DNA of 64,000 nucleotides from positions 1,180,167 to 1,244,166 of the forward strand of contig NZ_KQ950180.1 of the NCBI RefSeq assembly GCF_001517975.1, read 5' to 3'. The translations under genes were made by a program, and so were the position numbers. The notes below the pieces were generated by a model, which made no database searches, was not told where the DNA came from, and worked only from the letters and a program-made list of their open reading frames with translations. How positions within the stretch are numbered: position 1 is the stretch's first letter; every line of letters begins with the position of its first letter. Source of the stretch: Thermobifida cellulosilytica TB100 (GTDB lineage Bacteria; Actinomycetota; Actinomycetes; Streptosporangiales; Streptosporangiaceae). Below, piece by piece: positions 20,002 to 62,574 of the stretch.

Positions 20002-20242
20002 AGTCAGTACAGATCAGGGCGATCTTGAACGCCTCCCCTGTGGGAGGCCCGCCCGCGCGACCGCCGCTCCGGAGAGGAGAAATGGCAGGTCAGGGCTTTT
20101 CCAGCGGCTCAGAGTGGAATGGGCCACAGCCGTATCCGCCGCTCCGCAGCAGAAAGGTCGAGGCCGGGGCCGCGTTCGTCCGGCCGAAGGCGGTCACGGA
20201 GATCAGTCCCGCACCACCGGCACGAGAGGGGCCGGTTCGGGA

Positions 20243-22297: not shown

Positions 22298-22348
22298 CAG
22301 TCCCGCCCTCACCGAAATCGCCCAGACGACCGTCGGCCTCTTTTCTGC

Positions 22349-22365
22349 GCGGCATTATTTCAAGA
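22349..22365 (-). promoter_or_regulatory. Upstream box of kinase paralogue 2; rest of gap 22298-22647 empty
   Basis: The same 17-base box as at 19985-20001, 52 bases upstream of this kinase. It lies in the most AT-rich patch of the area (about 22330-22400, with AAATTTTTAACCCAATTG). No gene is seen in the remaining part of the 350-bp gap. Confidence 0.5.
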
Positions 22366-22647
22366 CGGAACTTAATTTCGGACGCTCTTGAAATTTTTAA
22401 CCCAATTGTCCTCTCCGCACGGGAGCCACTCCCGTCAAACGGCCAGAGGAGCAGTTCAGCAGCTTTTCTTGCAGTATCAGGTCAGGACGGGACACAACCG
22501 CGCCGCCAGCCCGCCTCCGAATCACGCCGGATTCATGTCCGTTCGGCCGGTTCGACAGCAACTGCTGTTACGACAGGTCCGAATCCGCAACGGCCCGCCC
22601 CGTCGTCCGCCGCCCTGTTGAGGTGCCGCAGGCTCCGCCCGCACCGG

Positions 22648-29630: not shown

Positions 29631-31835
29631 TCATCCGCTCAGTTGTTCCAGAAAGCGCATCGCTCCCGGCACGTCGAGGGCCTGCGCGGCGTAGGAGCGG
29701 GACAGCAGCTCCTCGCCCAGGTAGTGGTCGTACTTGTGGCGGCGCTTGTCGGCGACCATTCCGGCCAGGTCCACGGGATCGGGCGGCCCGGCCTTGACCA
29801 GGCGGGACACCGCACCGCGCAGCCTTTCCGGGGGCACGTCCGGCACGGTCACGAGCGCCCCGGCGTGTGCCGCCTTGATCCCCACCCACCGCAGCAGATG
29901 GCAGATGGTTTCGACGACTCGGTCCCCTCGCCACGGGAACAGCAGCGTCTCCCCGTCGTATTCGTGGACGTGAAGGTCGGCCAGTCCGATCTCCCGAAAC
30001 GCCATACGCCCCTCTTCCAACAGGATCGCTGCTGCCTCGTCGAGGTAACGGGGGACGTCCGTGCCCAGGTACACCTCTCGCATGTGTTGTCGGACGCCGT
30101 CGCTGACCGGCACCGGCACCCCGGCGAACCCGGGCGGCACGCCCCCGCCACGGGCGGGAACGACAAGTACCCGGCGTTCCGCGGGTTTGACCTCCACCAC
30201 CTGCCAGGAGCGTCCGCCGAACGCCAGCAGCGCCCCCGTGTCCACGGCCGGGCTGATCGGCATGGTGCCCATGTCGCCGTCGACGGTGGCGATCGTGTAC
30301 TCCTCGACCGTGTCGAACGCCGAGTAGAACGAGTAGTGGTTGAGGAGCGTCTCCCCCACTTTCCCCGGCAGCAGCAGGCCGCTGCGCTCCTGGGTGACTA
30401 TTCCGTGTGCTCCGAGAGCACGCAGCAGGTCCGCGAAGGTCTGTTCGTCCACTCCGGGGAAGGCCCCGTCGGCGCACAGCTCCCGGTACAGTCGCAGTGC
30501 ACTCGCTCCGCCGTGCTGGGCGAGCACGGACAGGATCTGCTGTACCAGTGTGGACAGATGCGGCGTCTCCAGATCGGGAGGTTCACACCAACGGCGCAGC
30601 AGCAGTTCCACCATGGCCACGGTCTGCACCAGGTCGAGGCGCAGCCGCTCCACCGGGGTCTCGGGCAGGCTCTGTTCGGTGATGTACACGTACAGCTTCG
30701 CGGGTGCGCTGCCCCGACCGGAGCGGCCGAGCCGCTGGCGCAGCCCTGCCACGGTGGGAGGGGTGCCGAGCTGCACGACCGTGTCCACCCAACCCACGTC
30801 GATCCCGAGCTCCAGAGTCGCGGTGCACACGATCGTGGCGGGTGCCGACCGGTTCTTCAGCCGCTGTTCGGCATGGGCGCGCAGCTCTGCGGAGAGCGAG
30901 CCGTGGTGGGGGGTGAAGGGGTTGGGAATCCGGTCCTGTTCGGCGAATTCCGACAGGGCGGCGGCGCAGCTCTCCGCCTCGGCCCGCGAGTTGACGAACA
31001 CCATGTTGTGCCCGGTGCGGACCACCTGATACAGATGCCCGGTGGCCGCGTCGCACGCTCCGCCCTCGGCGTCCTCACGCAGGTCCGCGACGTAGCCGCG
31101 TACTTGGAGCAGCAACTGTTTGCCTGCTCCCCGGTCCTCGAGGATCGTGACCCGATCGCCCTCCCCCGGACGGAGGAACTCGGCAGCGGCCCGCAGGTCC
31201 GCAAGGGTCGCGGACAATCCGATTCGGGCAGCCCGGTGGCCGGCAGCACGCTCCAGCCGGTGCATGAGGGAGCGCAGTTGTGCTCCGCGCGCGGTGCCGA
31301 GGAAGGCGTGCAGTTCGTCAACGACGATGTAACGCAGGTCGGCGAAGAGCCGCGCCACTGTGGAACCGCGGGTGACGAACATCGCCTCCAGCGACTCGGG
31401 GGTGATCAGCAGGATGCCGGAGGGCTCCTCGCGCAGCCGGTCCTTCTGTATCACCCCGATGTCGCCGTGCCAGGCGGTGACGGGGATCCCGATGCGCGCG
31501 CACAGGTCGGTGAGGCGCGTGTGCTGGTCGTTGATGAGTGCCTTGAGCGGGCTCAGGCAGACCGCCTGGATTCCGGTGCTCTCACCGTGCTCGGCGTCGC
31601 GGGCCAGCACCGAGCACACCGGCAGGAACACCGCCTCGGTCTTGCCTCCGGCGGTCGCCGCGGCCAGGAGCACATCGGTGTCGCCTCCGATGATCGGACG
31701 GATGGCCTGTTCCTGGATGGGGCGCAGGCTGGTCCAGCGTCGTTCCCAGACCCAGCGCTGGACTCCGCGGTGCAGCAGGGCGAACGCGTCCGGTCCCGTC
31801 TTCTCAGAGCCGGAAGGAGGCGAGGGGCGAGTCAT
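29631..31835 (-). CDS. Lhr/BrxHI-type DEAD/DEAH-box helicase
   Basis: A 734-residue superfamily 2 helicase from ATG 31835, which overlaps the BrxD-type gene by 32 bases. Motif I is AAATAGGKTEA, motif II VVDELHAF, motif III LSAT, and motif VI QRLGRSGRG, preceded by ELGIDVGWVDTVVQLGTPP. The C-terminal half (winged-helix and Lhr-core-like region) continues to RSYAAQALDVPGAMRFLEQL. This form corresponds to the helicase paired with BrxD in BREX type 2/Pgl systems (BrxHI). Here it is the last gene of a trio with a TerB-domain protein and the BrxD-type ATPase, and no PglZ or PglX lies nearby. Likely acts on foreign DNA. Confidence 0.88.
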   Translation of the reverse strand: MTRPSPPSGSEKTGPDAFALLHRGVQRWVWERRWTSLRPIQEQAIRPIIGGDTDVLLAAATAGGKTEAVFLPVCSVLARDAEHGESTGIQAVCLSPLKALINDQHTRLTDLCARIGIPVTAWHGDIGVIQKDRLREEPSGILLITPESLEAMFVTRGSTVARLFADLRYIVVDELHAFLGTARGAQLRSLMHRLERAAGHRAARIGLSATLADLRAAAEFLRPGEGDRVTILEDRGAGKQLLLQVRGYVADLREDAEGGACDAATGHLYQVVRTGHNMVFVNSRAEAESCAAALSEFAEQDRIPNPFTPHHGSLSAELRAHAEQRLKNRSAPATIVCTATLELGIDVGWVDTVVQLGTPPTVAGLRQRLGRSGRGSAPAKLYVYITEQSLPETPVERLRLDLVQTVAMVELLLRRWCEPPDLETPHLSTLVQQILSVLAQHGGASALRLYRELCADGAFPGVDEQTFADLLRALGAHGIVTQERSGLLLPGKVGETLLNHYSFYSAFDTVEEYTIATVDGDMGTMPISPAVDTGALLAFGGRSWQVVEVKPAERRVLVVPARGGGVPPGFAGVPVPVSDGVRQHMREVYLGTDVPRYLDEAAAILLEEGRMAFREIGLADLHVHEYDGETLLFPWRGDRVVETICHLLRWVGIKAAHAGALVTVPDVPPERLRGAVSRLVKAGPPDPVDLAGMVADKRRHKYDHYLGEELLSRSYAAQALDVPGAMRFLEQLSG

Positions 31836-33135
31836 TGTCCACGTCGTCCTCGGGACGCAGGGGTTGCAGGTCGGGGTTGGCCTCCTTGACGATCTCCACG
31901 GTCGACAGCAGGGCGCGCCAGTCGGCGTCCTCGTTCTGCACCAGTACGTCCATGAGGCCGATGAACTGCTTGATGGTGCTACGCGGGGTACGGAAGTAGG
32001 CGTCGCCGACCCGCTCTGCGCAGTGCTGCATGAACGCCTCGATCGCCTCGTCGGGCAGCGGGTAGCGCGCCGGATCACCGCCCGCGTAGACGTGCCGGAC
32101 CTTGCGCAGCAGTTCGTAGAAGTGCTCCTTGGTGAAGTGGCTGAGCCGCAGCACCGGGCCGTGGTAGTCGACGAGCCCGCCGGTGGCGTACGGGTTCTCT
32201 TCCAACCGGGAGCGCAGCGCCTCGTAGGAGTACAGGCCGCGCATCGGGTCCTCGAGGAACTCGGGGGTACCGCCGAACAGGAAGCCGATGTGTTCGGCCC
32301 GGCCCTGCTGGGTGTCGTTGATGATGTTGAGGATCTGCTCGTAGTTGGCGACCCTTGATCCCTTGTGGCTGAGCTTGTAGAGGTTGACGAGTTCGTCGAG
32401 GCAGACCAGCAGCCCTCTGTATCCGGCCATGGTGGTGAAGGCCGCCATGAGTTTGAGGTGGTCGAACAGGGATCGGTCGTCGATGATCTCGCTGACGCCC
32501 AGGTCGCGGGTGGCCTCGGTCTTCTTCGCGTACTCGGCGCTGAGCCAGCGCAGGGCGTGCGCACGCAGTTCCTCGTCCTGGTTGATGTAGGCGTGCCAGT
32601 ACGCCTGGACGACCTTGGCGAAGCTCGGACCGCCGGGGAATTCGCGCAGCCCCCACAGGCGCTTGCTCAACTGCTCTTCGGCTGTGGTCCCGGAGGCTTC
32701 GGCATCACGCTGCACCTGGGCCACGAACTGCTCCACGACTGAGGTGAGCGCCTGGCCGCCTGGCTTGGCACGGGTCGCCATGTTCGCCATGAGGGTGGAG
32801 TACAGCTTGCGGGCGCGCCCCTGGCTGCCCTGGAGGCGGCGGTCGGGGGTGAGGTCGGCGTGGACGGTGACCAGCTTGTTCTTGTGGGCGAGGGAGCGCA
32901 CGACGTGCAGGAAGAACGTCTTTCCGGCACCGTAGTCGCCGATGACGAACCGGACTGCGCCCGCTCCGTGCTTGATCTGTTCGATGCTGGTCTGCAGCGC
33001 TTCGAGTTCCCGGGCCCGTCCGACCTGGATGAGGCTGGCGCCGCGGTGCGGGACGACGCCGTTGCGCAGTGCGTCGAGCAGGGGTCCCCTGTCTCGGCTG
33101 CGGATGCTGCGGGTGGTTTCGGGGGTTTCGGTCAC
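31804..33135 (-). CDS. BrxD-type ATP-binding protein (DUF2791)
   Basis: A 443-residue P-loop ATPase from GTG 33135, overlapping the TerB gene's stop (GTGA). Walker A is FVIGDYGAGKTFFL near residue 62; Walker B is LLVCLDELVNLYK. Further family traits are RGASLIQVGRARELEAL upstream of the P-loop and FGGTPEFLEDPMRGLYSYEA after it, typical of BREX ATP-binding proteins (DUF2791, AAA/ORC-like). In BREX type 2 its partner is an Lhr-type helicase, which is exactly the next gene here. It probably loads or activates that helicase. Confidence 0.9.
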   Translation of the reverse strand: MTETPETTRSIRSRDRGPLLDALRNGVVPHRGASLIQVGRARELEALQTSIEQIKHGAGAVRFVIGDYGAGKTFFLHVVRSLAHKNKLVTVHADLTPDRRLQGSQGRARKLYSTLMANMATRAKPGGQALTSVVEQFVAQVQRDAEASGTTAEEQLSKRLWGLREFPGGPSFAKVVQAYWHAYINQDEELRAHALRWLSAEYAKKTEATRDLGVSEIIDDRSLFDHLKLMAAFTTMAGYRGLLVCLDELVNLYKLSHKGSRVANYEQILNIINDTQQGRAEHIGFLFGGTPEFLEDPMRGLYSYEALRSRLEENPYATGGLVDYHGPVLRLSHFTKEHFYELLRKVRHVYAGGDPARYPLPDEAIEAFMQHCAERVGDAYFRTPRSTIKQFIGLMDVLVQNEDADWRALLSTVEIVKEANPDLQPLRPEDDVDNDSPLASFRL

Positions 33136-36100
33136 TGGGTCATCTCCTCGAAGATCACCGTGCGCACGGTGACACGCTCTTCTTTCTCGTCGATCACGGG
33201 GGTGTCGACGAGGTCCCACGCGGCCTCGTTGATCTGGTCGACCGCCTCGTCGTAATCCAGGCCGTACCAGCGTGCGAGCCGAACGGCATCGGCCAGGCTC
33301 CAGCGCTCCCGGGTGGAGAGGTCGGTGAGCAGCGCGGCGTGGTGCTGGTCGAGCCCGTCGATCTCCCGGGGGCTCCGCTCCGTGGGATGCGTCCTGGCCG
33401 AGGGGAAGAAGAAGGCATCAGGAGTCCCCGGTACGGCGTTCTCGGGTGGCAGCGCGGTGCCCCGGTAGCTCAGCCTCAGCCGGAGCACCGCCTCCAGGCC
33501 GAGAACGCGGTGCACGCCGAGCAGGAAGACTGCCTGGTCGCGGGTGATCTTCCCTGCGCTCTCAGCGGCTTCGAGCAGGAGGTCGCCGACCTTCTCCCGG
33601 TCCCGCAGCGGCAGTCCGGCGAGACGGCGGCACAGGTCGAGCGGGGTCTCCCCGGCGATTCCTCGTTCGTGGAGGCGCAGCTCCCGCCACTCCTTCCCGG
33701 CCAGGTCCGCCATGCTTTCAATGGCGCGGACGATGGCCAGCTTGTGCGCCACGGCGGGCGGCCCCTCCAAGGAAACCAGCCGAACGGCGAGCTCAGCGAA
33801 GTCCGAAGCGGTTGTCCCCTGCCGGGCAACCGCTTCGGGGGCCTCGTCCGGAGGCGTGGCGGCCGTGCGGAGGCCCGTGACGGTCGGCGGCGCCGTTCCC
33901 CTCCCCCGCGCCGCGCGCTGCTCGGCGGCCGTCTCCGCGGGAGGGCGGCGGGACCGCACGGCCTGTTCGTAGGCTTTCTGCACGCGGCGTACGAGGTTGT
34001 CCGGCGGAGCGGTCCTCTCCACGTCGCGCACTCCCGGTACCGGCAGGCGGACTTCTCCCAGCCCTGGGCAGGAGGACTGGTAGACGTACTCGAGTAGGGG
34101 TGCGGAGCGCGGCACGATCTGCTCGCCCCGGTAGGGCAGCACCTCCTCGTCGAACGGGGTGAGCCTCCGGTACACCTCGGGGTCGGCGGGGCGCAGGTGG
34201 TACAGCACCCATTCCAGCGCCCAGTCGGCGGGCAGAAAGCGGTTGTCCCTGGCCAGCACACCCAGTCCCAGCCGGAAGCCGTAGGGGATCTGCTCGTCCC
34301 CCGGACGGTAGCGCGGCGGCTCGGCGGGCGGCTCGGCCTTCTCGGAGGCGAGGTCGGCGAGGGTGAGCAGGCGGTGCGTCTGCTCGGTGAACTCCGGGCT
34401 CGCGGCGAACCACTCGGCCAGCCTCTCCAGTTCTTCGCGCAGTCGCGGCGGAACCCGTACCGTCCCCTTCGGGGAGCGGATCATTTCGACGATCCGACGT
34501 TCCAGGCCGTTGCGGAACAGTCTTCCGAAGACCAGGGGGACCGATACGTTGCTTTCCCGTTTCGCCAGCCAGGACAGGTACCGCGACCGCTCCTGGGGGG
34601 TGAGGTCGGGGTATCCGAGGACTTCCCGCTGCGGGGCTCTGCCTCTCGGATGCATAACGGTGTGGTCCCGCTCCAGGGAGATGTCGATCGCTGAGGCCCA
34701 CTGCACGATGTCGGTGATGCCCACCGCTCCGGAGCTTCCCGCGTACACCATCCCGTCAGGAATGGTGTAGCGGCCGACCCTCAGCATGGTTCCCGGAGCT
34801 TTCCAGCTCGACCAGCGGTGGGTGATCTCCGTGGACAGTTCTGCCGGCAGCCCGGCCGCGGTCGTGGAAGCGGTCGGCTGTGTGCGGTGTCCCGTCGGAG
34901 TTGCCGGGGGTTGCGCCGTTTCCGGATCCCGCTGTCCGGTCTTCTTCTCGAGGTCGGCGAGTGCGGCCTGCACGATCCGCCGGAGATGGTTCAGCGGAAG
35001 GGCAAGGCTGTGGACGTCGTCGACTTCTCGGACGGGGAGCGTGACCGTCTCAAGGTCCGGGTTGGCCGGCTGGTAGGTCCAGACGACGTTTTTTCCGCCG
35101 CGGAAAGGCACGGGCAGCCCTTCGGGGAACTCGTCGGCGAAGCGCTTGCGGAACGCCTCGTGAAAGTCCTCGGAAGACCGTCTGGCCATCGGAGGGCTGA
35201 CTTCCTTGTGGTGTACCGCCCAGGAGAGCGCCCAGTCGACCGGGATCTTTCCGTCTCGGGAGGCCAGCATGCCGAGCCCGTAGCGGAGTTCGTCGGGGAA
35301 CGAGTCGAAAGGGTCGGTGGGGGACGGCGGGGTCAACAGATAGTCGTTGTCCCCGTAGATGAGGTGCCTGACCACCGAGTTGAAGGTCCGTGCCCGGTGC
35401 CGGAAACGCCGTAGGGACCGGTAGGTGCCGATCAGACGGACCAGTTCGGTGTGGATGTCCGGCAGTTCGTCGGCGAGCGCGTGGCCGGGCATGATGTCGC
35501 ACAGCACCCGCTGTTCCAGGCCGTAGAGGAAGAGGAAGAGCGGGCTGTCGTCGTCGAGCGTCCCGTTGCGCCCCGTGGCGAGCCAGTCCAGATACTGCCC
35601 TCGGGTGCTGTCGGCGCCTTGGTGGTAGCCCTTGCCGTAGTCGCTGGTGAGCGCTTTTCCCGGGGACAGGGGAGCGGGAAGGGTCGGGTCGATCACCGCG
35701 GCCCGCCGGTCGCCTCTGTCGGGCGTACCGAAATAGACCATTCCGGCGGTGATCCTCCGTCCCCGGACGGTGAGTTCCTCTCCCTTCCTGGTCCAGCGGG
35801 GACCGCTCTGCGCTCCTGCGGGCTGTTCTCTGGCCTGGACGGTGGCGGAGCGCGGCTCCGCCGTGGCGGCGGGCTGGGGGTCCCGCCGTGTCTCGGCCGT
35901 CTCGACTGCTGTCGGCAGTGCCCCTTGTTCCCGGAGTACCTCCAGTGCTTCGGGGTCCACGACGATCGTGTCGCCGTCCTCGTCGAGGAGCTCCATGTCG
36001 ACGGCGTCGAGGGTGTACTCGTTGATCTCGGCCAGCGCGCCGTCGACCATCAGGCCCTGCCGCCGGGCGAGCGCGGAAGCGTCGGCTCGGGACCACTCCT

Positions 36101-37229
36101 GTCTGGTCACCAGGGTCGCGAGGAAAGTGCGCAGGGCAGGCTCCAGTCCCGGAAGCTCCGGGTCTGCGGCTCCGGCGTGGGCGGGGACGCTCTTGGCAGC
36201 GCCGACGGCCGGTACCGGGGCTGTTTCTCCGGTCTCCTCCTCGTCTTCGTCGTCATCGAGGTCAGCGAGGAGCGCGTCGGCCCGGCGCACGTCGTCCTGC
36301 ACGGCGGCGAGCCGTTCGAGGTCGAGGTAGAAGCCGCTTCGCGTGGGGGCCGGTTGGTCCTGGCCGGCGGTCCCGGGTGCCGGTGACGGCGGCAGCACCG
36401 CAGCGGACTGCTCGTCGTCGCCTGAGAGGTCGTGCGGAGGCGTGGGCGCTTCCGGCCTCGTCGGCTCCGCAGTCCGCCTCTCGGGCGCGGGAGCGGGCTG
36501 CTGGGGTGGCCTGTTCTCCGTCTTCTGCTGCTGGCCCGCTGAGGTGGCAGGCCGGGGAGGAGCACTCGTCACCCGCCGCTTCCCGTAGTAGACGGGCTGG
36601 CAGCCGGGGTTGGCCGGCCGGTAGGTCCTCGACAGCGGAAGAGTCTCTTTCTCCCAACCGAGGCGCCAGTCCTGTCGCGGGGTCTCCTCCACATAGGCAA
36701 GCAGGTCGAGAAAGTTGGCGGCCTGCTGCTTCAGGAGCGGGTCGCGGCCGTAGACCGTGAGCAGCCGGTCCACCTCTCCACGGAGCAGCGGGAGGTCGGC
36801 CACCTGCCTGCTCTTCTGCAGTTGTCCGAGCACCCGGCGTTCCAGTCCGGTGAAGAAGAGGTAGACGAAGTTGACGGCCACGTCGGGCTTCTTCCTGCCG
36901 TCGGCATGCCACCGCAGGTATGCGGCTCTGGCTGCCGGGGAAAGCCGGCGGTAGGGGAGGAGGGCCGACGGTTTCATCGTCTGGGGTCGGAAGTCCGCGA
37001 TCAGACCGACTGACAGAGCGGGGATGATCGCGGAGATCTCGGCGGCCTGGGAGCCGGTGTTGACGTAGACCATTCCGTCCGGGATGACCAGGCTTATCAC
37101 GGCCAGCGAACTTCCCGGAGGAACCCACCAGAGGCCGTCGTTCTCCTGCTGCCACTCCTTGCTGGGACCGGGGCTCTGCCGCCTCTCCGGTGGCAGGAAG
37201 CGCTTGGAGAACGATGACTTCTTGGCCAA
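33132..37229 (-). CDS. Multi-domain TerB_N/TerB_C protein
   Basis: A 1365-residue protein. TTG 37229 is chosen because AAGGAG lies six bases upstream; no in-frame ATG fits. Three TerB_N-type domains are seen: near residues 20-260 (WWVPPGSSLAVISLVIPDGM, then YLFFTGLERRVL), near 490-745 (LFLFLYGLEQRVL) and near 800-1090 (VGRYTIPDGMVYAG, RNGLERRIVEM). TerB_C-like segments end the first unit (residues about 360-440, SRADASALARRQGLM) and the protein (WSLADAVRLARWYGL), with a helical TerB-like domain at about 1150-1270 (AIVRAIESMADLAG). Pro/Glu-rich linkers join them. These domains are linked to tellurite/stress and phage-response systems. First gene of the trio; it could be the scaffold or sensor. 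Confidence 0.85.
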   Translation of the reverse strand: MAKKSSFSKRFLPPERRQSPGPSKEWQQENDGLWWVPPGSSLAVISLVIPDGMVYVNTGSQAAEISAIIPALSVGLIADFRPQTMKPSALLPYRRLSPAARAAYLRWHADGRKKPDVAVNFVYLFFTGLERRVLGQLQKSRQVADLPLLRGEVDRLLTVYGRDPLLKQQAANFLDLLAYVEETPRQDWRLGWEKETLPLSRTYRPANPGCQPVYYGKRRVTSAPPRPATSAGQQQKTENRPPQQPAPAPERRTAEPTRPEAPTPPHDLSGDDEQSAAVLPPSPAPGTAGQDQPAPTRSGFYLDLERLAAVQDDVRRADALLADLDDDEDEEETGETAPVPAVGAAKSVPAHAGAADPELPGLEPALRTFLATLVTRQEWSRADASALARRQGLMVDGALAEINEYTLDAVDMELLDEDGDTIVVDPEALEVLREQGALPTAVETAETRRDPQPAATAEPRSATVQAREQPAGAQSGPRWTRKGEELTVRGRRITAGMVYFGTPDRGDRRAAVIDPTLPAPLSPGKALTSDYGKGYHQGADSTRGQYLDWLATGRNGTLDDDSPLFLFLYGLEQRVLCDIMPGHALADELPDIHTELVRLIGTYRSLRRFRHRARTFNSVVRHLIYGDNDYLLTPPSPTDPFDSFPDELRYGLGMLASRDGKIPVDWALSWAVHHKEVSPPMARRSSEDFHEAFRKRFADEFPEGLPVPFRGGKNVVWTYQPANPDLETVTLPVREVDDVHSLALPLNHLRRIVQAALADLEKKTGQRDPETAQPPATPTGHRTQPTASTTAAGLPAELSTEITHRWSSWKAPGTMLRVGRYTIPDGMVYAGSSGAVGITDIVQWASAIDISLERDHTVMHPRGRAPQREVLGYPDLTPQERSRYLSWLAKRESNVSVPLVFGRLFRNGLERRIVEMIRSPKGTVRVPPRLREELERLAEWFAASPEFTEQTHRLLTLADLASEKAEPPAEPPRYRPGDEQIPYGFRLGLGVLARDNRFLPADWALEWVLYHLRPADPEVYRRLTPFDEEVLPYRGEQIVPRSAPLLEYVYQSSCPGLGEVRLPVPGVRDVERTAPPDNLVRRVQKAYEQAVRSRRPPAETAAEQRAARGRGTAPPTVTGLRTAATPPDEAPEAVARQGTTASDFAELAVRLVSLEGPPAVAHKLAIVRAIESMADLAGKEWRELRLHERGIAGETPLDLCRRLAGLPLRDREKVGDLLLEAAESAGKITRDQAVFLLGVHRVLGLEAVLRLRLSYRGTALPPENAVPGTPDAFFFPSARTHPTERSPREIDGLDQHHAALLTDLSTRERWSLADAVRLARWYGLDYDEAVDQINEAAWDLVDTPVIDEKEERVTVRTVIFEEMTQ

Positions 37230-37574
37230 GTCCTGCTCCTTGCTGCTCGAGCGCCCGATGCTGTCAGAGGGGGAGAGGCGATCGGCGCCTGCTCCGCCCC
37301 GCCTGTTCACCCCGGGACCGCTTCTCACCGCGCGGCACTGTCCCCACTCTTCTCCTACCAGCCCTTCTGGGGACCTGCGTCCCGAATTGTGGTGATTTCC
37401 TGGTGATTCCCAGACACCGTCCCCGACGGTGTGCCACGATCCCTGTGGAGCCACCCACCAACTACAGTTGTGTGAACTGAGCTAACAAGATAATGTCCAC
37501 TCTCGACAGATCACAACCCCGTCCGTAAGTTAGATCCGCGTCCGCGTCCACCCGTCCGACGACGAGGAACCCCG
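37230..37574. promoter_or_regulatory. Divergent control region between the TerB operon and DISARM
   Basis: A 345-bp gene-free gap separates the two divergent defence operons. The right third is AT-rich by local standards. On the plus strand TCGACA (37503-37508), 17 bases and TAAGTT (37526-37531) form a plausible promoter about 40 bases before drmD. A second weak candidate GATAAT is at 37489-37494. No convincing promoter was identified for the minus strand. Shared control of the two operons from here is possible. Confidence 0.5.
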
Positions 37575-40500
37575 ATGGCGAGCACAACCAAGGACACGCC
37601 CACCCCCAACGCCCTGGTGGCGGTCCGGGGGCAGAAGTGGGTGGTGAGCCAGGTCGAACCAGCCGGAGAGCAGGCCACCCTGGTGGCCTTGCAGAGCGTC
37701 GAGGACGGCCGCTTCGGCGAGACCCTGGAAGTGATCTGGGAGGTGGAGCCGGGCCGCCGGGTGCTGCCCGCCGGTTCGCTGCCCGAGGTCTCCGTCGCCG
37801 CGGGGTTCGACCCGCCGGACCAGCTCGCCGCATTCCTCGACGCGGTGCGCTGGTCGGCCGTCACCTCCGCCGACGTACGGCTGCTCCAGGCGCCGTTCCG
37901 CTCCGGAGTGACCGTCGAGGACTACCAGTTGGAGCCGGTGTCGCGCGCCGTGGCCGCACCCCGCGTGAACCTGCTGCTCGCCGACGACGTCGGCCTCGGC
38001 AAGACCATCGAGGCCGGCCTGGTCGCCCAGGAGCTGCTGCTGCGGCACCGCGCCAAACGCGTCATGATCGTCTGCCCGGCGGGCCTCACCGTGAAGTGGC
38101 GCGACGAGATGGCCGAGAAGTTCGGCCTGGACTTCACCATCGTGGACTCGGAGCGCTGCGCCAGGGTGCGCCGCGACTTCGGCAGCGCCGCCAACCCGTT
38201 CAACGTGTACCCGCTGACCATCGTCAGCCTGCCGTGGCTGCGCAGCGCGAAGGCGCAGCGGCTGCTCGACGAGGTGCTGCCCGCCGACGGCCCCGGCTAC
38301 CCGCGCGCCTTCGACCTACTGATCCTGGACGAGGCGCACCATGTCGCTCCGGCCGCGCCCAAGCAGGTGTACGCGGTCGACTCGCAGCAGACCAAGCTGA
38401 TCCGCCGACTCGCCCCTCACTTCACGCACCGCCTGTTCCTGTCGGCGACCCCGCACAACGGCTACCAGGCGTCGTTCACCGCGCTGCTGGAGATCCTCGA
38501 CGACCAGCGGTTCGCCCGCGGCGTGGCCCCCGACCGGGCGGCGGTGCGCGAGACGGTGGTGCGCCGCCTCAAGACCGACATTGTGGACGCCGACGGCAAC
38601 CCGCGTTTCCAACGCCGCGAGGCGAAGGCGCTCCCGGTGGTCTACCCGGACAGCGAACGCGAGATCCACGGCCTGCTCACCCGGTTCGCGGAGCTGCGCC
38701 GCGCCAAGATCGCGTCGCGTCGCGGCCGCAAGGCCACCGACCTGGTCACCCTGCTGCTGAAGAAGCGCCTGTTCTCCAGTCCGGCGGCGTTCGCGCACAC
38801 CCTCTCCGTCTACCTGGACACGCTCAACCGCCGCTCCGGCGCGGCCCTGACCACGGTCGACGACGACGTGCCCGAGTGGCTGGAGGACTTCTTCGACGAC
38901 ACCGCCGCCTACGACGACGAGCAGTTGGCAGAGGCGGAGGACGACGCGCTGGACCGCACCCGCCCCATGCAGCCCGACGCCGACTCCGAGGAGACGGCCC
39001 TGCTGGAGCAGATGCTGGAGTGGGCCGTCAGCCACGAGGCCAACGCCGACGCCAAGGCCCGCGAACTGATCGGCTACCTGAAGTCGGTGTGCCGGCCCGA
39101 CCAGCACTGGACCAACGAGCGGGTCGTGGTGTTCACCGAGTACCGCGACACCCTCGACTGGCTGGTGGACCTGCTCCGCCAGGAGGGCATGGGCGGCGAC
39201 CGGGTGGCGGTGCTGCACGGCGGCATGAACGCCCACGAACGCGAACAGGTGCGGCTGGCCTTCCAGAAGCACCCGTCCGAGCACCCGGTGCGCATCCTGC
39301 TGGCCACTGACGCCGCCGGTGAGGGCATCGACCTGCAACGCCACTGCCACCGCCTGGTCAACTACGACATCCCGTTCAACCCGAACAAGCTGGAACAGCG
39401 CATCGGCCGCATCGACCGCTACGGCCAGTCCCAAACCCCCGAGGTGCGGCACTTCGTGGGATCGGGCTGGCAGGGCGCCGTCGACTCCTACGAGGCCGAC
39501 CTGGAGTTCCTGTCCCGGGTCGCCACGAAGGTGGCGCGCATGGAGGAGGACCTGGGCCAGGTCAACGCGGTGCTGGCGGACGCGGTGCAGCGACGCATGC
39601 TCGGCCAGGCCACCGACGTCGACGTGGAGAACGCCGGGTCGCGCAAGGAGCGGCTGGCCTCCGACGCCAACGTCCGCGACCAGGTGCGCAGACTCCGCGA
39701 GAAGCTGGACGCCACCGTCAAGGAGCTGGGCCTGACCCCCGACCGGGTGAAGCGGGTCGTGGACACCGCGCTGGCCCTCGCCAACCAGCAGAGCCTCACC
39801 CCCCACGTCGACGAGCGGGAGCTCGCCGAGGGCCTGTTCGACGTGCCCACGCTCACCGACTCGTGGGCGCGCGCCGCCGAAGGGCTGACGGAGAAGCTGC
39901 CGTCGGGCGGCGAGCCCCGGCAGCTTCCGGTCACCTTCGACCCGGAGGTGGCGCGGGGCCGCGACGACGTGGTGCTCGCGCACCTCAACCATCCGCTGGT
40001 GGCGATGTCCACGCGGCTGCTGCGCGCCGCCGTGTCCAACGACCGGGTGGGGCTGCGCCGGGTGACGGCCGTGGTCAGCGACGATCCGGCCCTGGAGGAC
40101 GTACTGGTCGGCGCCTACTCGCGGTTCGTGCTGGTGGGCGCCGACGGCATCCGACTGCACGAGGAGGTGCTGTACGCGGGCGGGTGGGCGCCCGAGCACG
40201 GCCGGTTCCGCCGCTTGGAGAACCTGGGCGTGCTCGGCGGCATCCTGGACCGCGCGCTCACCAGTGGCCGCCCCGCCTCGGACGTGGTGTGGCAGCGCGT
40301 CGCGCAGCGGTGGCCGCAGATCTCCGACGGCCTCATGTCGGCCGTCAAGTGGCGGAAGAAGACCCGTCAGGAGTCGCTGGGCCGCCAGTTGGAGCAGCGC
40401 GCCGCCGAGGAACGCGAGCGGATCACCTCCGTGTTCAAGCAGTTCTCCGCGACCCTGCGCGCCGCGCTCGCGGCGGACCCCGACGACGCCGAGGACGCCC

Positions 40501-40709
40501 TGTTCAGCCGAGTCGAGCTGGAGAAGTCGAAGGAGGAGTTGGAGCAGTACCGGCGCGACCGCCGCAACTGGCAGCGCCGCCTCGACGAGCTGGACGCCGA
40601 ACGCGAACGCGAACTGGCGGCGATCGAGGCCCGCTACAGCCGCCAGGAGCCGCACCTGTTCCCCGTCGCCGTGGTGTTCGTCATTCCGTCCCGGGAGGCC
40701 GTCCGATGA
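37575..40709 (+). CDS. drmD: DISARM SNF2-like helicase DrmD
   Basis: A 1044-residue protein from ATG 37575 (GAGGA upstream). It has the SNF2/RapA-like helicase layout: motif I ADDVGLGKTIEAG near residue 138, motif II ILDEAHHVAP near 252, SATPHNGY, and the C-terminal lobe ATDAAGEGIDLQRHCHRLVN and QRIGRIDRYGQ near 575-615, then a long helical C-terminus. The immediate downstream partner is an adenine methylase overlapping by four bases (ATGA); this pair defines class 1 DISARM. DrmD is thought to translocate on duplex DNA as part of restriction of unmodified phage DNA. Confidence 0.93.
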   Translation: MASTTKDTPTPNALVAVRGQKWVVSQVEPAGEQATLVALQSVEDGRFGETLEVIWEVEPGRRVLPAGSLPEVSVAAGFDPPDQLAAFLDAVRWSAVTSADVRLLQAPFRSGVTVEDYQLEPVSRAVAAPRVNLLLADDVGLGKTIEAGLVAQELLLRHRAKRVMIVCPAGLTVKWRDEMAEKFGLDFTIVDSERCARVRRDFGSAANPFNVYPLTIVSLPWLRSAKAQRLLDEVLPADGPGYPRAFDLLILDEAHHVAPAAPKQVYAVDSQQTKLIRRLAPHFTHRLFLSATPHNGYQASFTALLEILDDQRFARGVAPDRAAVRETVVRRLKTDIVDADGNPRFQRREAKALPVVYPDSEREIHGLLTRFAELRRAKIASRRGRKATDLVTLLLKKRLFSSPAAFAHTLSVYLDTLNRRSGAALTTVDDDVPEWLEDFFDDTAAYDDEQLAEAEDDALDRTRPMQPDADSEETALLEQMLEWAVSHEANADAKARELIGYLKSVCRPDQHWTNERVVVFTEYRDTLDWLVDLLRQEGMGGDRVAVLHGGMNAHEREQVRLAFQKHPSEHPVRILLATDAAGEGIDLQRHCHRLVNYDIPFNPNKLEQRIGRIDRYGQSQTPEVRHFVGSGWQGAVDSYEADLEFLSRVATKVARMEEDLGQVNAVLADAVQRRMLGQATDVDVENAGSRKERLASDANVRDQVRRLREKLDATVKELGLTPDRVKRVVDTALALANQQSLTPHVDERELAEGLFDVPTLTDSWARAAEGLTEKLPSGGEPRQLPVTFDPEVARGRDDVVLAHLNHPLVAMSTRLLRAAVSNDRVGLRRVTAVVSDDPALEDVLVGAYSRFVLVGADGIRLHEEVLYAGGWAPEHGRFRRLENLGVLGGILDRALTSGRPASDVVWQRVAQRWPQISDGLMSAVKWRKKTRQESLGRQLEQRAAEERERITSVFKQFSATLRAALAADPDDAEDALFSRVELEKSKEELEQYRRDRRNWQRRLDELDAERERELAAIEARYSRQEPHLFPVAVVFVIPSREAVR

Positions 40710-43700
40710 GTCCCCGTCCTCGCCGTTCCCGCCCCGCCGCCCCCGACAGTGCGCAGCAGCACCGCGAGTGGCTGTCGCTGATCGAGGTGAGCGGCCCGTT
40801 CCTGTCGCTGCCGGTGCTCCGCGACACCTGGCCGAGCCTGGAGGCGCTGACCAAGGAGCAGGTCGCTGCACTGCGCCGGGCGCACACCGCCTGGCAGGCC
40901 GACACGGCCGCCGGACAGCGCCCCTGGGTGGACTTCGTGCTCGGCGAACTGCTCGACTGGCGGGAGGAGTACCGCACCGACGCCGAGGAGCTGGCGGGCC
41001 TCGCGATGGAGGTGCCCGAGCACGACACCACGGTCACCCCGTCGTTCGCCCTCGTGGAGCCGGGCGAGGACGTCAAGCCGGACACGGTGCGGCTGCTCGG
41101 CCTGGTGTGTCCGCCGAACGCCTCCCCCACGGCCCGCGTGAAGGGCGAGGCGTGGTCGGCGACCCCCGTGGACCGGCTCGCCCAGTTGTGCCGTCACCAC
41201 GGCGTGGAACTGGGCCTGGCCACCGACGGCCGCTGGTGGGTGCTGGTGTGGGCGCCGCGCGGCGGCGTCACCACCACCGCCGTGTTCGACGCGGTCGCCT
41301 GGGCGGAGGCCGCCGAACGGATCGTGGTGCGCGCGTTCTTCTCGCTGCTGGGCCGCAGCCGCTTCTTCGCGGTGCCCGACGAGGAGACGCTCGTACCGCT
41401 GCTGCGCAAGAGCCTGGACTCTCAGGAGGAGATCACCGAGGCCCTCGGCGTGCAGGTCCGCCAGGCCGTGGAGCTGCTGGTCGCCGCGATCGGCCGCGCC
41501 GACACCTGGTCCCGGGAGCACGGCGAGCCCAGTCTGGCGCACGTGCCCGCGCACGAGGTGTACCGGGGCGCGGTGTCGGTGATGATGCGCGTGGTGTTCC
41601 TGCTGTTCGCGGAGGAGCGGAAGCTGCTGCCGTCCGACAACGAGCTGTACGCCAGGGCGTACTCGGCGGGCCGGCTCTGCGCCGAACTGGAGCAGCGCGC
41701 CCTGGAGGGCTCCGAGGAGGAACTGGAGAACACCTACACCGCCTGGCACCGGCTGCTCGCCCTGTTCAACGCGGTCTACCACGGCGTGGACCACCCGAGG
41801 CTGCGCATGACCGCGCACGACGGGTCGCTGTTCCACCCGGACCAGTTCGCGTGGCTGCCGCTGCACATCGACGACCGCACCGTGCTGCACATGCTGCGCG
41901 CCGTGCAGTACGTCGAGATCGGCTCGGGCCGGTCGAAGGAGCGGCGCAAGCTGTCGTTCCGCACCTTGGACGTCGAGCAGATCGGCTACGTGTACGAGGG
42001 CCTACTGTCCTTCGACGGCTTCCGCGCCGACGACGTGGTCGTGGGCCTGGTCGGCAAGGAGGGCCGCGAGGAGGAGGTGCGCCTCGCCGACCTGGAGGCG
42101 CTGGCGGCGCACCACTCCGACCTGAGCGGACTGGCGAAGGCCGTCTCGGACGCCTACAGGCAGTCCGGCATCGGTTCGGCGCGGGCCGTGGAGAAGCGGC
42201 TGGCCCCGCTGTCGGGCGCGGCGAGGGAGGAGGCCCGCAAGAAGCTGCTCGCGGTGACCCGCGGCGACTACCCGCTGGCGGAGCGGCTGCTGCCGTTCTT
42301 CGGGATTCTCCGCACCGACCTGCGCGGACTGCCGGTGGTGGTGCTGCCGGGCGAGCTGTACGTGACGGAGTCGCCGCTGCGCCGGAACACGGGCACGCAC
42401 TACACGCCGCGCTTCCTCGCCGAACAGGTCGTCGAGGGCGCGCTGGAGCCCTTGGTGTACGAACCGGGGCCGTTGCAGACCGCCGACCGCGACGAGTGGA
42501 AGCTCAAGTCGAGCGCCGAGATCCTGGACCTGAAGGTCGCCGACATCGCGATGGGCTCGGCGGCGTTCCTCGTCGCCGCGGCCCGGTACCTGGGCGACCG
42601 CCTCATCGAGGCGTGGGTCGCCGAAGGCGACGAACGGGTCCGCGACTACACCCCCACCGGTGACGGGTTGGGGGCCGACGAGGACCCGGTCGTCATCGAG
42701 GCACGGCGGCAGATCATCGAGCACTGCCTGTACGGGGTGGACATCAACCCGATGGCCGTGGAGATGGCAAAGCTGTCGCTGTGGCTGGTGTCCATGGACC
42801 CGAAGCGGCCGTTCACGTTCCTGGACGACCGACTGGTGGCGGGGGACTCGCTGCTGGGGATCACGTCCCTGGAGCAGGTCGAGTACATGCACATGGACCC
42901 GAAAAGGGGTAAAGAGGTCCACGACCGACTCGATCCGCAACTCCTGGCGAACGTGCGCTCGGTGGTTTCAGGAATCGCCAAAGAGCGCCGAAGGATCACC
43001 GAGGTCGACGGCGGAACGATCGATGGCGTGCACCGCAAAAGCTCCATTCTCGCCGGAGTACGACTGGACACCGGATACGCCGAACTGTTCGCCGACCTGT
43101 GTGTGGGAGCAGCGCTGGCCCATGTCAAGCGCGGGGACACCGGCCTGAGAAACGGTTCTATCCTGGCCGCCGACTACGCTCGACGGATCGACACCGCCGA
43201 GGCCCAGGCCCGCGAACAGATCCGGGAATGGCTGGAGACAGACAGGCCGGAAGGGGCCTTCAAGCGGGAGCCGCTCCACTGGCCACTGGTGTTCCCGGAA
43301 GTGTTCGAAAAGGGCGGATTCGATGCGGTGATCGGGAATCCTCCGTTCTTGGGAGGACAGAAGCTCACCGGAGCCCTGGGAACCGCGTACCGCGAACACT
43401 TGGTGCACGGTATCGGCCACGGTGCTCGGGGAAGCGCCGACCTAGTCGCCTACTTCGCACTTCGGGCGCATGACGTCCTCAATAGCGGTGGTCAGACCGG
43501 ACTGATCGCCACCAATACCTTGGCTCAAGGAGACACCCGGGAAGTCGGGTTGGACCAACTGGTCGCTAACAAGGTCACCATCCGGCAGGCAGTCAAGAGC
43601 AAACCTTGGCCTTCAAAGAGTGCAGCTCTGGAGTACTGCGCGGTATGGGGAAGCAGGGCCGAACTGTCGGACAAGGCCAAGAAGATTCTTGACGGAAGCG

Positions 43701-44755
43701 AGGTAGCGGGCATCACTCCTTCACTGGACCCTGCTTCCCGGGTGAGTGGAAATCCGGAGCGGCTTGCGAGCAACAGGGGGATTTCCTTCCAGGGGAGCAA
43801 CATCCTCGGCACAGGCTTCACTATGCCCCCCGAAAAGGCACAAGAACTCATCGAGAAGGACCCACGCAACAAGGAAGTCCTCTTCCCCTACCTCAACGGG
43901 CAGGACCTGAACACGCGCCCGGACTACTCGGGGAGCCGTTGGGTCATCAACTTCCACGACTGGTCAGAGGAACGCGCGAAGGAGTACCCGGAGTGCTACG
44001 AGCAGGTCGTCAAGCTGGTTAAGCCAGATCGAGAGCAGAACAAACGCAAAGCTCGCCGGGATCGATGGTGGCAATATGCTGAGATAGCACCAAACCTTTA
44101 TACGGCTATTTCTGACCTAGATCGCACCATCGCAATTACCCTCGTCAGTAAGACTGTAATGCCAATGATGGTGTCGACTGGCCAAGTTTTCTCGCATATG
44201 CTGGCAGTCTTTGCCACCGACGACACCGCCATTCTGGCCTTGCTCTCAAGCTCGCCGCACTACTGGTGGGCCAAGTCCCGTGGCTCTTCAATGAAGGCCG
44301 ATCTCCGCTACACCCCCTCCGACGTCTTCGAAACTTTCCCTCTCCCTGAACTCACCGAGGAACTGCGCGAGCTCGGCTCCCGCCTGGACTCCTTCCGTCG
44401 GGACGTGATGCTCTCCCGTCAGTCCGGTCTCACCAAGACCTACAACCTGGTCTTCGACCCGGAGTGCTCCGACGACGACATCGAGGAGCTGCGCCGGATC
44501 CACAAAGCCATCGATGAGGCCACTGTCCGCGCCTACGGCTGGGAGGAGCGCATCGAGAAAGTCGGCAGCCTCGACCACGGGTTCCACAAGGTCGGCAGGA
44601 AGGAACTCCGCTACACCATCGGCCCGGCCGCCCAGCGCGAGATCCTGGACAGCCTGCTTGAGCTGAACCACGAGCGCTACGCCCAAGAGGTCGCCCAAGG
44701 CCTGCACGACAAGAAGAAGGGCACGCGCGCCACCCAGCAGAGCCTGCTTGACTGA
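40706..44755 (+). CDS. drmMI: DISARM adenine-specific DNA methyltransferase DrmMI
   Basis: A 1349-residue protein, translationally coupled to drmD. The N-terminal 550 residues are the helical region seen in large Eco57I-like methylases. The catalytic core has the SAM motif as DIAMGSAAFLVAAARYL near residue 612 (the usual GSG is GSA) and the N6-adenine motif NPPF in DAVIGNPPFLGGQ near 878. The C-terminal third carries target recognition; around positions 43980-44290 base composition is less GC-rich than elsewhere in the gene, suggesting a swapped specificity segment. It should methylate host DNA at N6-adenine so that DISARM spares it. Confidence 0.93.
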   Translation: MSPRPRRSRPAAPDSAQQHREWLSLIEVSGPFLSLPVLRDTWPSLEALTKEQVAALRRAHTAWQADTAAGQRPWVDFVLGELLDWREEYRTDAEELAGLAMEVPEHDTTVTPSFALVEPGEDVKPDTVRLLGLVCPPNASPTARVKGEAWSATPVDRLAQLCRHHGVELGLATDGRWWVLVWAPRGGVTTTAVFDAVAWAEAAERIVVRAFFSLLGRSRFFAVPDEETLVPLLRKSLDSQEEITEALGVQVRQAVELLVAAIGRADTWSREHGEPSLAHVPAHEVYRGAVSVMMRVVFLLFAEERKLLPSDNELYARAYSAGRLCAELEQRALEGSEEELENTYTAWHRLLALFNAVYHGVDHPRLRMTAHDGSLFHPDQFAWLPLHIDDRTVLHMLRAVQYVEIGSGRSKERRKLSFRTLDVEQIGYVYEGLLSFDGFRADDVVVGLVGKEGREEEVRLADLEALAAHHSDLSGLAKAVSDAYRQSGIGSARAVEKRLAPLSGAAREEARKKLLAVTRGDYPLAERLLPFFGILRTDLRGLPVVVLPGELYVTESPLRRNTGTHYTPRFLAEQVVEGALEPLVYEPGPLQTADRDEWKLKSSAEILDLKVADIAMGSAAFLVAAARYLGDRLIEAWVAEGDERVRDYTPTGDGLGADEDPVVIEARRQIIEHCLYGVDINPMAVEMAKLSLWLVSMDPKRPFTFLDDRLVAGDSLLGITSLEQVEYMHMDPKRGKEVHDRLDPQLLANVRSVVSGIAKERRRITEVDGGTIDGVHRKSSILAGVRLDTGYAELFADLCVGAALAHVKRGDTGLRNGSILAADYARRIDTAEAQAREQIREWLETDRPEGAFKREPLHWPLVFPEVFEKGGFDAVIGNPPFLGGQKLTGALGTAYREHLVHGIGHGARGSADLVAYFALRAHDVLNSGGQTGLIATNTLAQGDTREVGLDQLVANKVTIRQAVKSKPWPSKSAALEYCAVWGSRAELSDKAKKILDGSEVAGITPSLDPASRVSGNPERLASNRGISFQGSNILGTGFTMPPEKAQELIEKDPRNKEVLFPYLNGQDLNTRPDYSGSRWVINFHDWSEERAKEYPECYEQVVKLVKPDREQNKRKARRDRWWQYAEIAPNLYTAISDLDRTIAITLVSKTVMPMMVSTGQVFSHMLAVFATDDTAILALLSSSPHYWWAKSRGSSMKADLRYTPSDVFETFPLPELTEELRELGSRLDSFRRDVMLSRQSGLTKTYNLVFDPECSDDDIEELRRIHKAIDEATVRAYGWEERIEKVGSLDHGFHKVGRKELRYTIGPAAQREILDSLLELNHERYAQEVAQGLHDKKKGTRATQQSLLD

Positions 44756-46304: not shown

Positions 46305-46391
46305 GCCCCCAGGGTCCGGCAGCGTCCCCGGCATCGAGCAAGACTCTTCCCCAGGCTGTGGACAGCTCTACGCCACACCGACAGTCCCCGT

Positions 46392-56126: not shown

Positions 56127-59100
56127 ATGTCCGACGCACTCTTCCCCAACCCCCACGGCGAGCAGACCGAACTCGACACCTCCGAACCGCCCCCGCCGGA
56201 CCCCGCAGACCTCCTCGACCAGTCGCAGCCGTTCACCCAGGCCGCCTCGTTCCAGGTGCGCGACGCCTTCCAACGGCTCGTGGAACGCGACCTGCTCGGC
56301 CCCTGGGACGGCGACCACGAGCGTTTCGCCCCGAGGGCGCGCGGCCCCCGCGACCGCTACCTGGTGGGCATGCTCGGTCCCCGGCACCACGCGCCCCGGC
56401 GCGGCGAGTCCGCCATCACCCTCGACACCTCCACCGGTGTCGCGGGTGAAGCACGCGGCGAGGAGGGGGCGGAACTGCCCGAGGTGCTGCCCGCGCAGCC
56501 CCTCGGCCGCCTGTGGGCCTCGTCCATGGGACTGTCCTGCCGCGTGGCCGCCGACACCGACGTGCTCGTGGTCACCGCCGCCTGGGGCGAGTACACCCGG
56601 GAGAAGACCGAGGACGAGGAGGGCCGCCAGCGCACCGTATGGGCGCGCGTGCCCCGCCGCCACGTCCGGGAGGTCCGCCTCGACGGCGCCCCCGACCAGC
56701 GCATCGCCCTGACCGCCGACGATCCCGACAGCTCCTGCGTCTACCTGGCCGTCGCGGTGCGCCCCGCGGGGACGACCCGCACCGTCGAACTCTCCCTGGT
56801 CAACAACCAGCGGGAACCCGACTCCGCCCTGGACACGGCGTGGCTGTTCCAGACGGAACTCACCGTCACCGCACTGGACGGCAGCTCCCCGGTGTTCCTG
56901 CCCATCGACGACCCGCTGACCGAGGACGCCCCCCACGTGGACGACCCGGAGGAGCTGCACCTGCGGCTCCTCTACCGCGACCAGCTCAAGTACGCCACGG
57001 GCCACAACGTCGCCGTGCACGCCGACGCCGTCCCCGAGCTGCGCCGCGCCCGCACCCTGCGGACCACCTGGCTGCCCAGCTACGACGTGCCCGCCACTGT
57101 GGCCCCCGACGGGGAGGGCACCCCGCTCGCCGACGCCCTGCTGTCCATGGACGCCCTCGCCGAGGCCGCCCCCGACACGCTGCGCACCGGGCTGGCGCCG
57201 CTCGCCGACGGGTACGAGGCATGGCTCGACGAGCGCGCCGCCGAGATCCCCGGCCTGCCCGCGCGTCTCGGCAAGGCCGCCGAGGCCGCGGTGTTCCGCG
57301 CCCGCCGCGTCGCCGAACGCATCCGCGCGGGCATCGCCCTGCTCACCGACCCGGCCGTGCCCGGCCACGCGGACGCACTGCGCGCCTTCCGGTTCGCCAA
57401 CCGGGCCATGGCCGCACAGCGGCGGCACACCGAGATCGCACGGCTGCGCCAGGACCCGTCGATCAGCTACGTCGAGGCCGAACGGCGGGTGCGGGAACGC
57501 GGCCCCTCCGCGGCGTCGTGGCGCCCCTTCCAACTGGCGTTCATCCTGCTCAACCTGCCGTCGATCGCCGACGTGGACCACCCGGACCGCACCTTCGCCG
57601 ACGGCGTGGTGGACCTGCTGTTCTTCCCCACCGGCGGCGGAAAGACCGAAGCCTACCTGGGACTGACCGCGTTCACCTTCGCCGTCCGGCGGCTCCAGGG
57701 CACGGTCGGCGCCGGCGAAGACGCGCGCGACGGCGCGAGCGGGGTGGCCGTGCTGATGCGCTACACGCTGCGGCTGCTCACCGCCCAGCAGTTCCAGCGC
57801 GCCGCCGCGCTGGTGTGCGCGGCCGAGGTGCTGCGCGCCGAGGACCCCGCCACCTGGGGCTCCGAGCCGTTCCGCATTGGTCTGTGGGTGGGGATCGGGG
57901 TCTCCCCGAACTGGTTCGACGAAGCCAGGGACCAGATCGCCGCGGCCCGCGAATCCGGCAGCGGCCGACGTGCCAACGTGCTGCAGACCGTGACGTGTCC
58001 GTGGTGCGGCGCCGCGCTGCACGCCTACCGCGACCTGCGCACCGTCGAAGGACTCCGGCGGGTGCTGCTGTTCTGCGGCAACGGCGAGGGGGCCGACGCC
58101 TGCCCGTTCTCGCGGAAGCACTCCCAGGAAGGGCTGCCGATCCTCACCGTGGACGAGGAGATCTACCGGCTGCTGCCCAGCCTGGTCATCGCCACCGTGG
58201 ACAAACTGGCGCAACTGCCGTGGAAGGGCTACGCGGGCATGCTGTTCGGCCGGGTGCACGAGTACTGTCCCCGGCACGGCTACCGGCACGACGACCTGGA
58301 CGAGAAGACCGGCTGCGGCTCCCGCCACAACAAGAAGGGCGACCTGCCTGCCGTGTCCAGCCGCCCCGTGGTGCGGCTGCGCCCGCCGGACCTGATCATC
58401 CAGGACGAGCTGCACCTGATCTCCGGCGCGCTGGGCACCACGGTCGGCCTGTTCGAGTCGGCCGTGGACGAGCTGTGCACGTGGACCACGCCGAACGGCA
58501 CGGCGACCGGGCCGAAGATCGTGGCGTCCACCGCCACCACCAAACGCGCCGCCGCGCAGGTGCGGGGCGTGTTCGCGCGCGGCCTGGAGATCTTCCCACC
58601 GCAGGTCACCGACGTTGCCGACACGTTCTTCTCCCGGCAGGCGCCGGTCACCGAGGCCACCCCCGGACGACGCTACCTGGGGGTGTGCGCACACGGCACC
58701 CGGTTGAAGTCCGCGGAGATCCGGATCGCCGAGATCCTGCTGCTCGCCGGGCAGACCGTGTTCGACCGGTACGGCGCGCCCGCCGACCCGTACATGACCC
58801 TGGTCGGCTACTTCAACGCCACCCGGGAACTGGCGGGCATGCGCCGCTACCTCGACGACGACGTGGTGACCCGGGTGCGGCGCAGCAGGCCCGGCCTGTC
58901 GCGTCGGCTCGTCGGCGCCGCGAAGCTGCTCACCGTCCAGGAGCTGACCTCGCGCATCTCCTCCGGCGACATCAGCGAGGTGCTCAAGCACCTGGAGGTC
59001 GGCTTCGACCCGGACCTCGACACCACCGGGCGCCAGGAGGCCGTCATCAGCCACGTCCAGGACGTCCGCAAACGGCACGGCAGGCAGAAGGGGTGGGACC

Positions 59101-61813: not shown

Positions 61814-62574
61814 CCCGCTTCGAGGAGGCTGCCTCCGCCGCCGCGGCCGCGCTGGGCGCCGAGGCGTTGGACGCGCTCGCGGAACGGATCGCCGCCGGGT
61901 GGCCGCCCCACGCGATCCTCGGCGAACGGGGGTGGCGCTTCGACGAGGCGGCCGCACCCGTGCTCGCCGCCCTCGACGGGGAGGTGCCGCCGCCGGAGGC
62001 GGCCGCCTACCTGCGTGGGCTGGCCGAAGGGCTGCGCCGGGGCCGCTCCGACACCACCGTGGAGACGGTGTGGAGCGGCCCCGCCAGCAACGCCGTGCCG
62101 GTGCGCGCCACCGCGCAGGTACTGCTCGACGTGATCGCCGAAACGACCCGCGAACTGAGGTTGATGACCTACTCGGCCCGCCCGCACCGGGAGGTGCGGG
62201 CCGCACTGGCCGCGGCCGTGGCGCGGGGGGTGGCGGTCACGGTGGTGGTGGAGACGCTCCGCGGTGCGGGCGGTGCGTTGGAAGGCGACGAGCCCGCCGC
62301 CGCATTCGCCGGGATCGGCGGGGTGCGGGTGTGGCACTGGCCGACCGGCCAGCGGGCCGTCCGGCACGGCAAGATGCACGCGAAACTGGCCGTCGGCGAC
62401 CGGAGGACGCTGCTCGTGTCCAGCGCGAACCTCACCCAGTCCGGGGTTGCCGCCAACATCGAGGCAGGGCTGCTGGTGCGCGGCGGCCCCGCGCCGCGAC
62501 GGGTCGCCGAGCACATCGACGCGTTGCAGGCTGCCGGTGTGCTCCGGCCGTTCGGTGGAGGACGGGACTCGTGA
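61810..62574 (+). CDS. drmC: DISARM phospholipase-D-like protein DrmC
   Basis: A 254-residue protein from GTG 61810, overlapping drmB. A single PLD-type HKD motif is visible, HGKMHAKLAVGDRRTLLVSS, ANLTQSG, near residues 187-215, so a dimer would form the active site. The N-terminal region is helical. Family knowledge: DrmC is part of most DISARM loci but is dispensable in some tested systems. Last gene of the drmA-B-C block. Confidence 0.92.
   Translation: MTRFEEAASAAAAALGAEALDALAERIAAGWPPHAILGERGWRFDEAAAPVLAALDGEVPPPEAAAYLRGLAEGLRRGRSDTTVETVWSGPASNAVPVRATAQVLLDVIAETTRELRLMTYSARPHREVRAALAAAVARGVAVTVVVETLRGAGGALEGDEPAAAFAGIGGVRVWHWPTGQRAVRHGKMHAKLAVGDRRTLLVSSANLTQSGVAANIEAGLLVRGGPAPRRVAEHIDALQAAGVLRPFGGGRDS

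Follow-up and report, generated by a model that had tools for sequence, protein, structure and literature searches.

The sng operon and its neighbours

The window, that is, the whole stretch of 64,000 nucleotides from Thermobifida cellulosilytica TB100 analysed here, contains a three-gene operon, sngABC (29631-37229), in which the genes overlap and all lie on the reverse strand; next to it, divergently oriented, is a class 1 DISARM system, complete within the window with drmD, drmMI, drmA, drmB, and drmC (Table 1). The sngA gene starts with a TTG codon preceded by the Shine-Dalgarno sequence AAGGAG, a ribosome-binding site that is kept in the sister genome G507 from the same genus; the GTG start codon of sngB overlaps the stop codon of sngA as GTGA, and the ATG of sngC falls within sngB. 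Pfam detects three TerB_N and two TerB_C domains in SngA, a BrxC_BrxD domain in SngB (1.5e-141), and DEAD and Helicase_C domains in SngC, and both the Walker A and B motifs of SngB and the GKT, DELH, SATL, and QRxGRxGR motifs of SngC are intact. These overlaps, domains, and motifs bear out the earlier, sequence-only reading of the locus as coupled genes for a TerB_N/TerB_C protein, a BrxD-type ATPase, and an Lhr/BrxHI-type helicase.

Table 1. The sng operon, the adjoining intergenic region, and the DISARM genes (positions within the window)
Feature	Positions	Strand	Basis or remark
sngC, Lhr/BrxHI-like SF2 helicase	29631..31835	-	SngC model; DELH box
sngB, BrxD-like AAA+ ATPase, 443 aa	31804..33135	-	Walker A GDYGAGKT, Walker B LVCLDE
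sngA, long form, 1365 aa	33132..37229	-	PADLOC SngA 7.4e-98; TerB_N-TerB_C-TerB_N-TerB_N-degenerate TerB-TerB_C
Intergenic region, 345 bp, between the sngA and drmD starts	37230..37574		best kept in the drmD-proximal ~100-175 bp
drmD, DISARM SNF2-like helicase	37575..40709	+	PADLOC; NCBIfam DISARM_DrmD
drmMI, DISARM type IIG-like methyltransferase	40706..44755	+	target-recognition domain ~43808-44353
drmA, DISARM helicase	56127..59921	+	model matches
drmB	59918..61813	+	model matches
drmC (PLD-like)	61810..62574	+	model match

The DISARM drmD gene is full-length, scoring 1428 bits with the NCBIfam model DISARM_DrmD, for which the cut-off is 610, and approximately 11 kb of other genes separate drmMI from drmA. 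Within this gap, a reverse-strand gene (45351-46334) encodes a protein with an AbiEi-like N-terminus and, fused to it, a DUF559/MTES_1575 nuclease-like domain. Two further reverse-strand frames (51037-52925) encode an NB-ARC domain (52062-52925) and TPR repeats (51037-52065); the counterpart in G507 is a single NB-ARC-TPR protein of 720 amino acids (L105:15785-17947), and the copy in the window was probably split by a frameshift.

Assignment to Shango

For all three genes, the best PADLOC models are those of Shango (SngA, 7.4e-98; SngB, 1e-156; SngC, 5.9e-251). The match of SngA covers the C-terminal 570 residues, in 4 stretches. SngB scores 520 bits with the SngB model versus 165 with BrxD, and SngC scores 833 bits with its own model versus 400 with BrxHI, that is, the Shango models prevail over those of BREX by 350-430 bits. 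The nearest solved relatives of SngC are Lhr-type helicases, all distant, and searches of PDB sequences with SngA and SngB returned no match. The order of the genes and their translational overlap are those of canonical Shango loci across phyla. A housekeeping Lhr operon was considered and dropped, the Shango models and the defence neighbours being the better fit. It is therefore virtually certain that the trio is Shango, an already published anti-phage system for which Millman et al. 2022 is reportedly a further source.

Shango consists of three genes, for a TerB protein, an ATPase, and a helicase; the system of Pseudomonas aeruginosa PA14, when placed in PAO1, conferred 10-100-fold protection against several phages, and Shango was found independently in Escherichia coli, where it blocks phages as well (PMC10250203). 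Independently, SngC has been placed in the literature in one group with the helicases BrxHI, DruE, and DpdJ. Because the trio is already published as Shango (PMC10250203) and modelled in PADLOC, it is not the undescribed module that it had been taken for; the accompanying proposal that it acts as a self-contained antiviral module agrees well with this identity and with the published protection by the three-gene arrangement. The window trio shares with Shango the gene order, the three families, the translational overlap, the ATPase and helicase motifs, and the setting in a defence island; however, at 1365 aa versus roughly 700-800, its SngA has approximately double the length, with three TerB_N domains, two TerB_C domains, and a degenerate TerB core, and this copy is divergent from DISARM. 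Bunzi and Dionysus are other defence systems in which, as in Shango, a TerB-family domain occurs in an anti-phage context (PMC10952713, PMC12926258), and Shango is set apart from them, by description and not by sequence, by the SngB/SngC partner pair.

The same genome encodes a second Shango, of the canonical form (L004 6221-12474; C1:328000-347000), neighboured by genes of a defence-like kind (ShosA-like and HEC-05-like) and by a UvrD-like gene.

A rebuilt form of SngA

Relatives of SngB were sought in 84,980 species genomes; the 80 loci recovered, from many phyla, make up, together with loci from whole genomes, the roughly 100 Shango loci examined here. The domains of 97 SngA proteins, some from redundant loci, were read with HMMs derived from the domains of canonical SngA. 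The arrangement TerB_N-TerB-TerB_C accounts for 85 of the 97, and the long form, TerB_N-TerB_C-TerB_N-TerB_N-(TerB)-TerB_C, for only 4, namely, the window, G507, G560, and Nocardiopsis halotolerans, all from one actinobacterial lineage. The SngB proteins of this clade are 65-89% identical to that of the window, and the others recovered in an order-wide SngB search are at most 60% identical. Three long SngA proteins outside the clade (L147, L156, and L159) have TerB_N, TerB, and TerB_C domains only once each. In the SngA of a gammaproteobacterial MAG (L177), two TerB_N domains precede TerB-TerB_C, an independent gain of a domain.

The TerB core of the long form receives no Pfam call, and the local HMM finds it weakly or not at all in the four proteins (2.4e-5 for the window with the family-specific HMM). 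Acidic residues that vary little or almost never among canonical SngA proteins are replaced in it (E18 by H, D83 by A, G, or V, and E90 by Q), with the loss in G560 read from one alignment only. In TerB, such acids bind metal. An AlphaFold model of the core (pLDDT 89.5, pTM 0.86) retains the helical fold of TerB, and the best Foldseek matches of this model are 2h5n and 2ou3, the latter a tellurite-resistance protein, with probabilities of 0.99-1.00 and weak E-values (0.17-0.25). Judging from these sequence comparisons, what is new relative to Shango is a lineage-specific rebuilt form of SngA.

Divergence of sngA between sister species

Compared with G507, the window shows nucleotide identities of mostly 83-94% across sngC and sngB, with lower values at the extreme 3' end of sngC. 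Identity drops to 55-78% at approximately 33.2-37.2 kb, that is, in sngA, and in the sngA-proximal part of the intergenic region, whereas drmD and the greater part of drmMI are again at 87-96%. A second drop, at approximately 42.8-44.4 kb, takes in the target-recognition domain of drmMI, and besides sngA, this is the only strongly diverged block in the stretch from sngC to drmMI. At the protein level, SngB and SngC are approximately 89% identical and SngA 56%, the lowest SngA identity among 21 Shango pairs with similar identity of SngB and SngC. Thus, between these sister species, sngA has undergone exchange or accelerated divergence, with sngB and sngC conserved.

The dS values are 0.76 for sngA, 0.19 for sngB, 0.32 for sngC, 0.17 for drmD, 0.28 for drmA, 0.27 for drmB, and 0.45 for drmC, against a genomic background of 0.23 for gyrB and 0.14 for rpoB; in sngA, dN is high as well, with a dN/dS of 0.44. 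Since dS is raised along with dN, these values point to replacement of sngA by a diverged allele between the sister species rather than to selection on the protein alone. The evidence of replacement comes mainly from this single pair of genomes, and across Shango at large, the pattern is weaker than in the case in hand: among 24 close, non-independent pairs, the dN of SngA is the highest of the three genes in 17, and its dS exceeds those of both partners in only 10. In a pair of Pseudoalteromonas loci (L153 and L157), SngB is approximately 100% and SngA 83% identical, with dS of 0.43 for sngA versus 0.18 and 0.17 for its partners, possibly a second replacement of sngA.

SngA as a putative specificity subunit

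Taken as a whole, the best explanation of the locus, to which we assign a probability of roughly 0.8, is Shango in a defence island beside DISARM combined with a recognition mechanism that involves SngA, the first part of this reading being the dominant one. We found no published mechanism of Shango. Tentatively, and at slightly less than even odds, SngA could be the specificity subunit of the system, and an exchangeable one, SngB and SngC being the conserved motor. The drmMI recognition domain, which lies in the other diverged block of the stretch, serves by analogy as an internal yardstick for such a specificity module. In a bolder version, which we consider possible but less probable, recombination would exchange whole-gene sngA alleles within a conserved motor backbone of sngB and sngC, in the manner of hsdS or the target-recognition domains of type IIG enzymes, and the long form would then imply that recognition resides in TerB_N and TerB_C, with metal binding by TerB dispensable.

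According to this scheme, the TerB_N and TerB_C domains of SngA would recognise a protein or a nucleic-acid structure derived from the phage, upon which SngA would license or recruit the SngB ATPase; SngB would load the SngC helicase on phage DNA, and ATP-driven translocation by SngC would block phage replication. That SngB acts as the loader of SngC as a motor seems an even bet. Because the conserved acids are gone, the TerB core of the long form would act as a scaffold and not sense metal. None of the trio genes encodes a nuclease, and therefore, a block that is non-degradative or relies on host nucleases appears likelier than direct cleavage. Should the phage range depend on the SngA allele, the sister operons are a natural swap experiment and would assign a defined job to TerB domains, which are widespread in defence islands.

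The most serious competitor of this scheme, although the less probable of the two, is that the divergence of sngA reflects escape from phage-encoded inhibitors of Shango in the course of an arms race, as opposed to target specificity. Hypervariable defence subunits can be targets of inhibitors, and the divergence data can also be read as escape; however, the fact that the sole other strongly diverged block is a sequence-recognition region favours specificity, although escape is still compatible with this fact.

Shango and DISARM as neighbours

The neighbourhood of each Shango locus was read for approximately 10 kb on each side, where the contig allowed. The 345-bp size of the region between the trio and drmD, which had been noted as a control region common to both, is confirmed, and the divergent layout and this intergenic region are kept in G507. 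Such conservation would suit a reading of SngABC as an accessory of DISARM, placed under one control region and either working only with DISARM or enhancing it, as would the proximity of drmA and drmB to a canonical Shango in Actinomadura craniellae (approximately 7 kb away, just beyond the stretch first read, and in another arrangement). However, among the roughly 100 Shango loci, DISARM genes within the stretch read were found only in the window and in G507, and two of the four long-SngA loci adjoin other systems: that of Nocardiopsis halotolerans adjoins type I restriction-modification genes and that of G560 a PDC-S37/Hhe-like helicase-nuclease gene, with no drmA match anywhere in the G560 genome. 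In G435, a further genome of the same genus, the flanking genes and DISARM are kept, with drmD 88.5% identical to that of the window, as are the drmD-proximal ~100 bp of the intergenic region, but all that remains between drmD and the next gene is a remnant of the 3' part of sngA, interrupted by a stop (tblastn, 2e-7). It follows from this remnant and from the DISARM-free Shango loci that each system persists in the absence of the other. The two systems consist of different proteins, and Shango is not an obligate partner of DISARM; the role of accessory is improbable, and the suggestion of the sequence-only reading that the trio enhances DISARM is unsupported. Shango and DISARM appear to be separate machines that share a defence island, possibly with common regulation.

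At the other side of the operon, three similar large frames lie in tandem on the reverse strand (17726-24735), with a motif resembling GPYRLV..LGAGGMGQV at the start; these are probably serine/threonine kinases, and related copies occur in the G435 flank.

Possible decay of the long SngA

The loss of the TerB acids and the high dN raise the question of whether the long SngA is decaying or non-functional, its fast divergence reflecting relaxed constraint. This is a slim prospect, even slightly more so than the accessory role. The frame of 1365 codons is open in the window, with full-length frames in the three other genomes, the dN/dS stays at the value given above, sngB and sngC are constrained, with intact motifs, and relaxed selection does not explain the rise in dS.

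Relation to BREX

The pairing of an ATPase and a helicase is common to Shango and type 2 BREX, in which BrxD and BrxHI are homologous to SngB and SngC, and the corresponding BREX models do match both proteins; unlike type 2 BREX, however, the trio lacks PglW, PglX, PglY, and PglZ and scores far more weakly with the BREX models. The resemblance is real but secondary. The earlier report of no pglW, pglX, pglY, or pglZ near the trio held up in the scan of the neighbouring genes, among which no BREX gene turned up. A search for the trio away from DISARM and BREX, which had been suggested along with it, is answered in part: nearly all of the roughly 100 Shango loci show no DISARM in the stretch read, and none contains a homologue of the PglY or PglZ of this genome. 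An undescribed module or BREX-2 derivative, in which the TerB protein replaces PglW, PglX, PglY, and PglZ, can practically be dismissed given this absence, the margins of the Shango models, the publication of the trio as Shango (PMC10250203), and the genuine BREX-2 with its own brxD elsewhere in the same genome; the notion that the TerB protein takes the place of the Pgl components is likewise contradicted by the Shango assignment and by this separate system. The BREX-2 of the genome (BrxC/PglY, a PglZ-like gene, and BrxD) is located roughly 70-80 kb past the right edge of the window, and its BrxD scores 703 bits with the BrxD model versus 122 with SngB, the opposite of the window SngB, which remains below the NCBIfam BrxD equivalog cut-off (NF033438, 164 bits versus 350).
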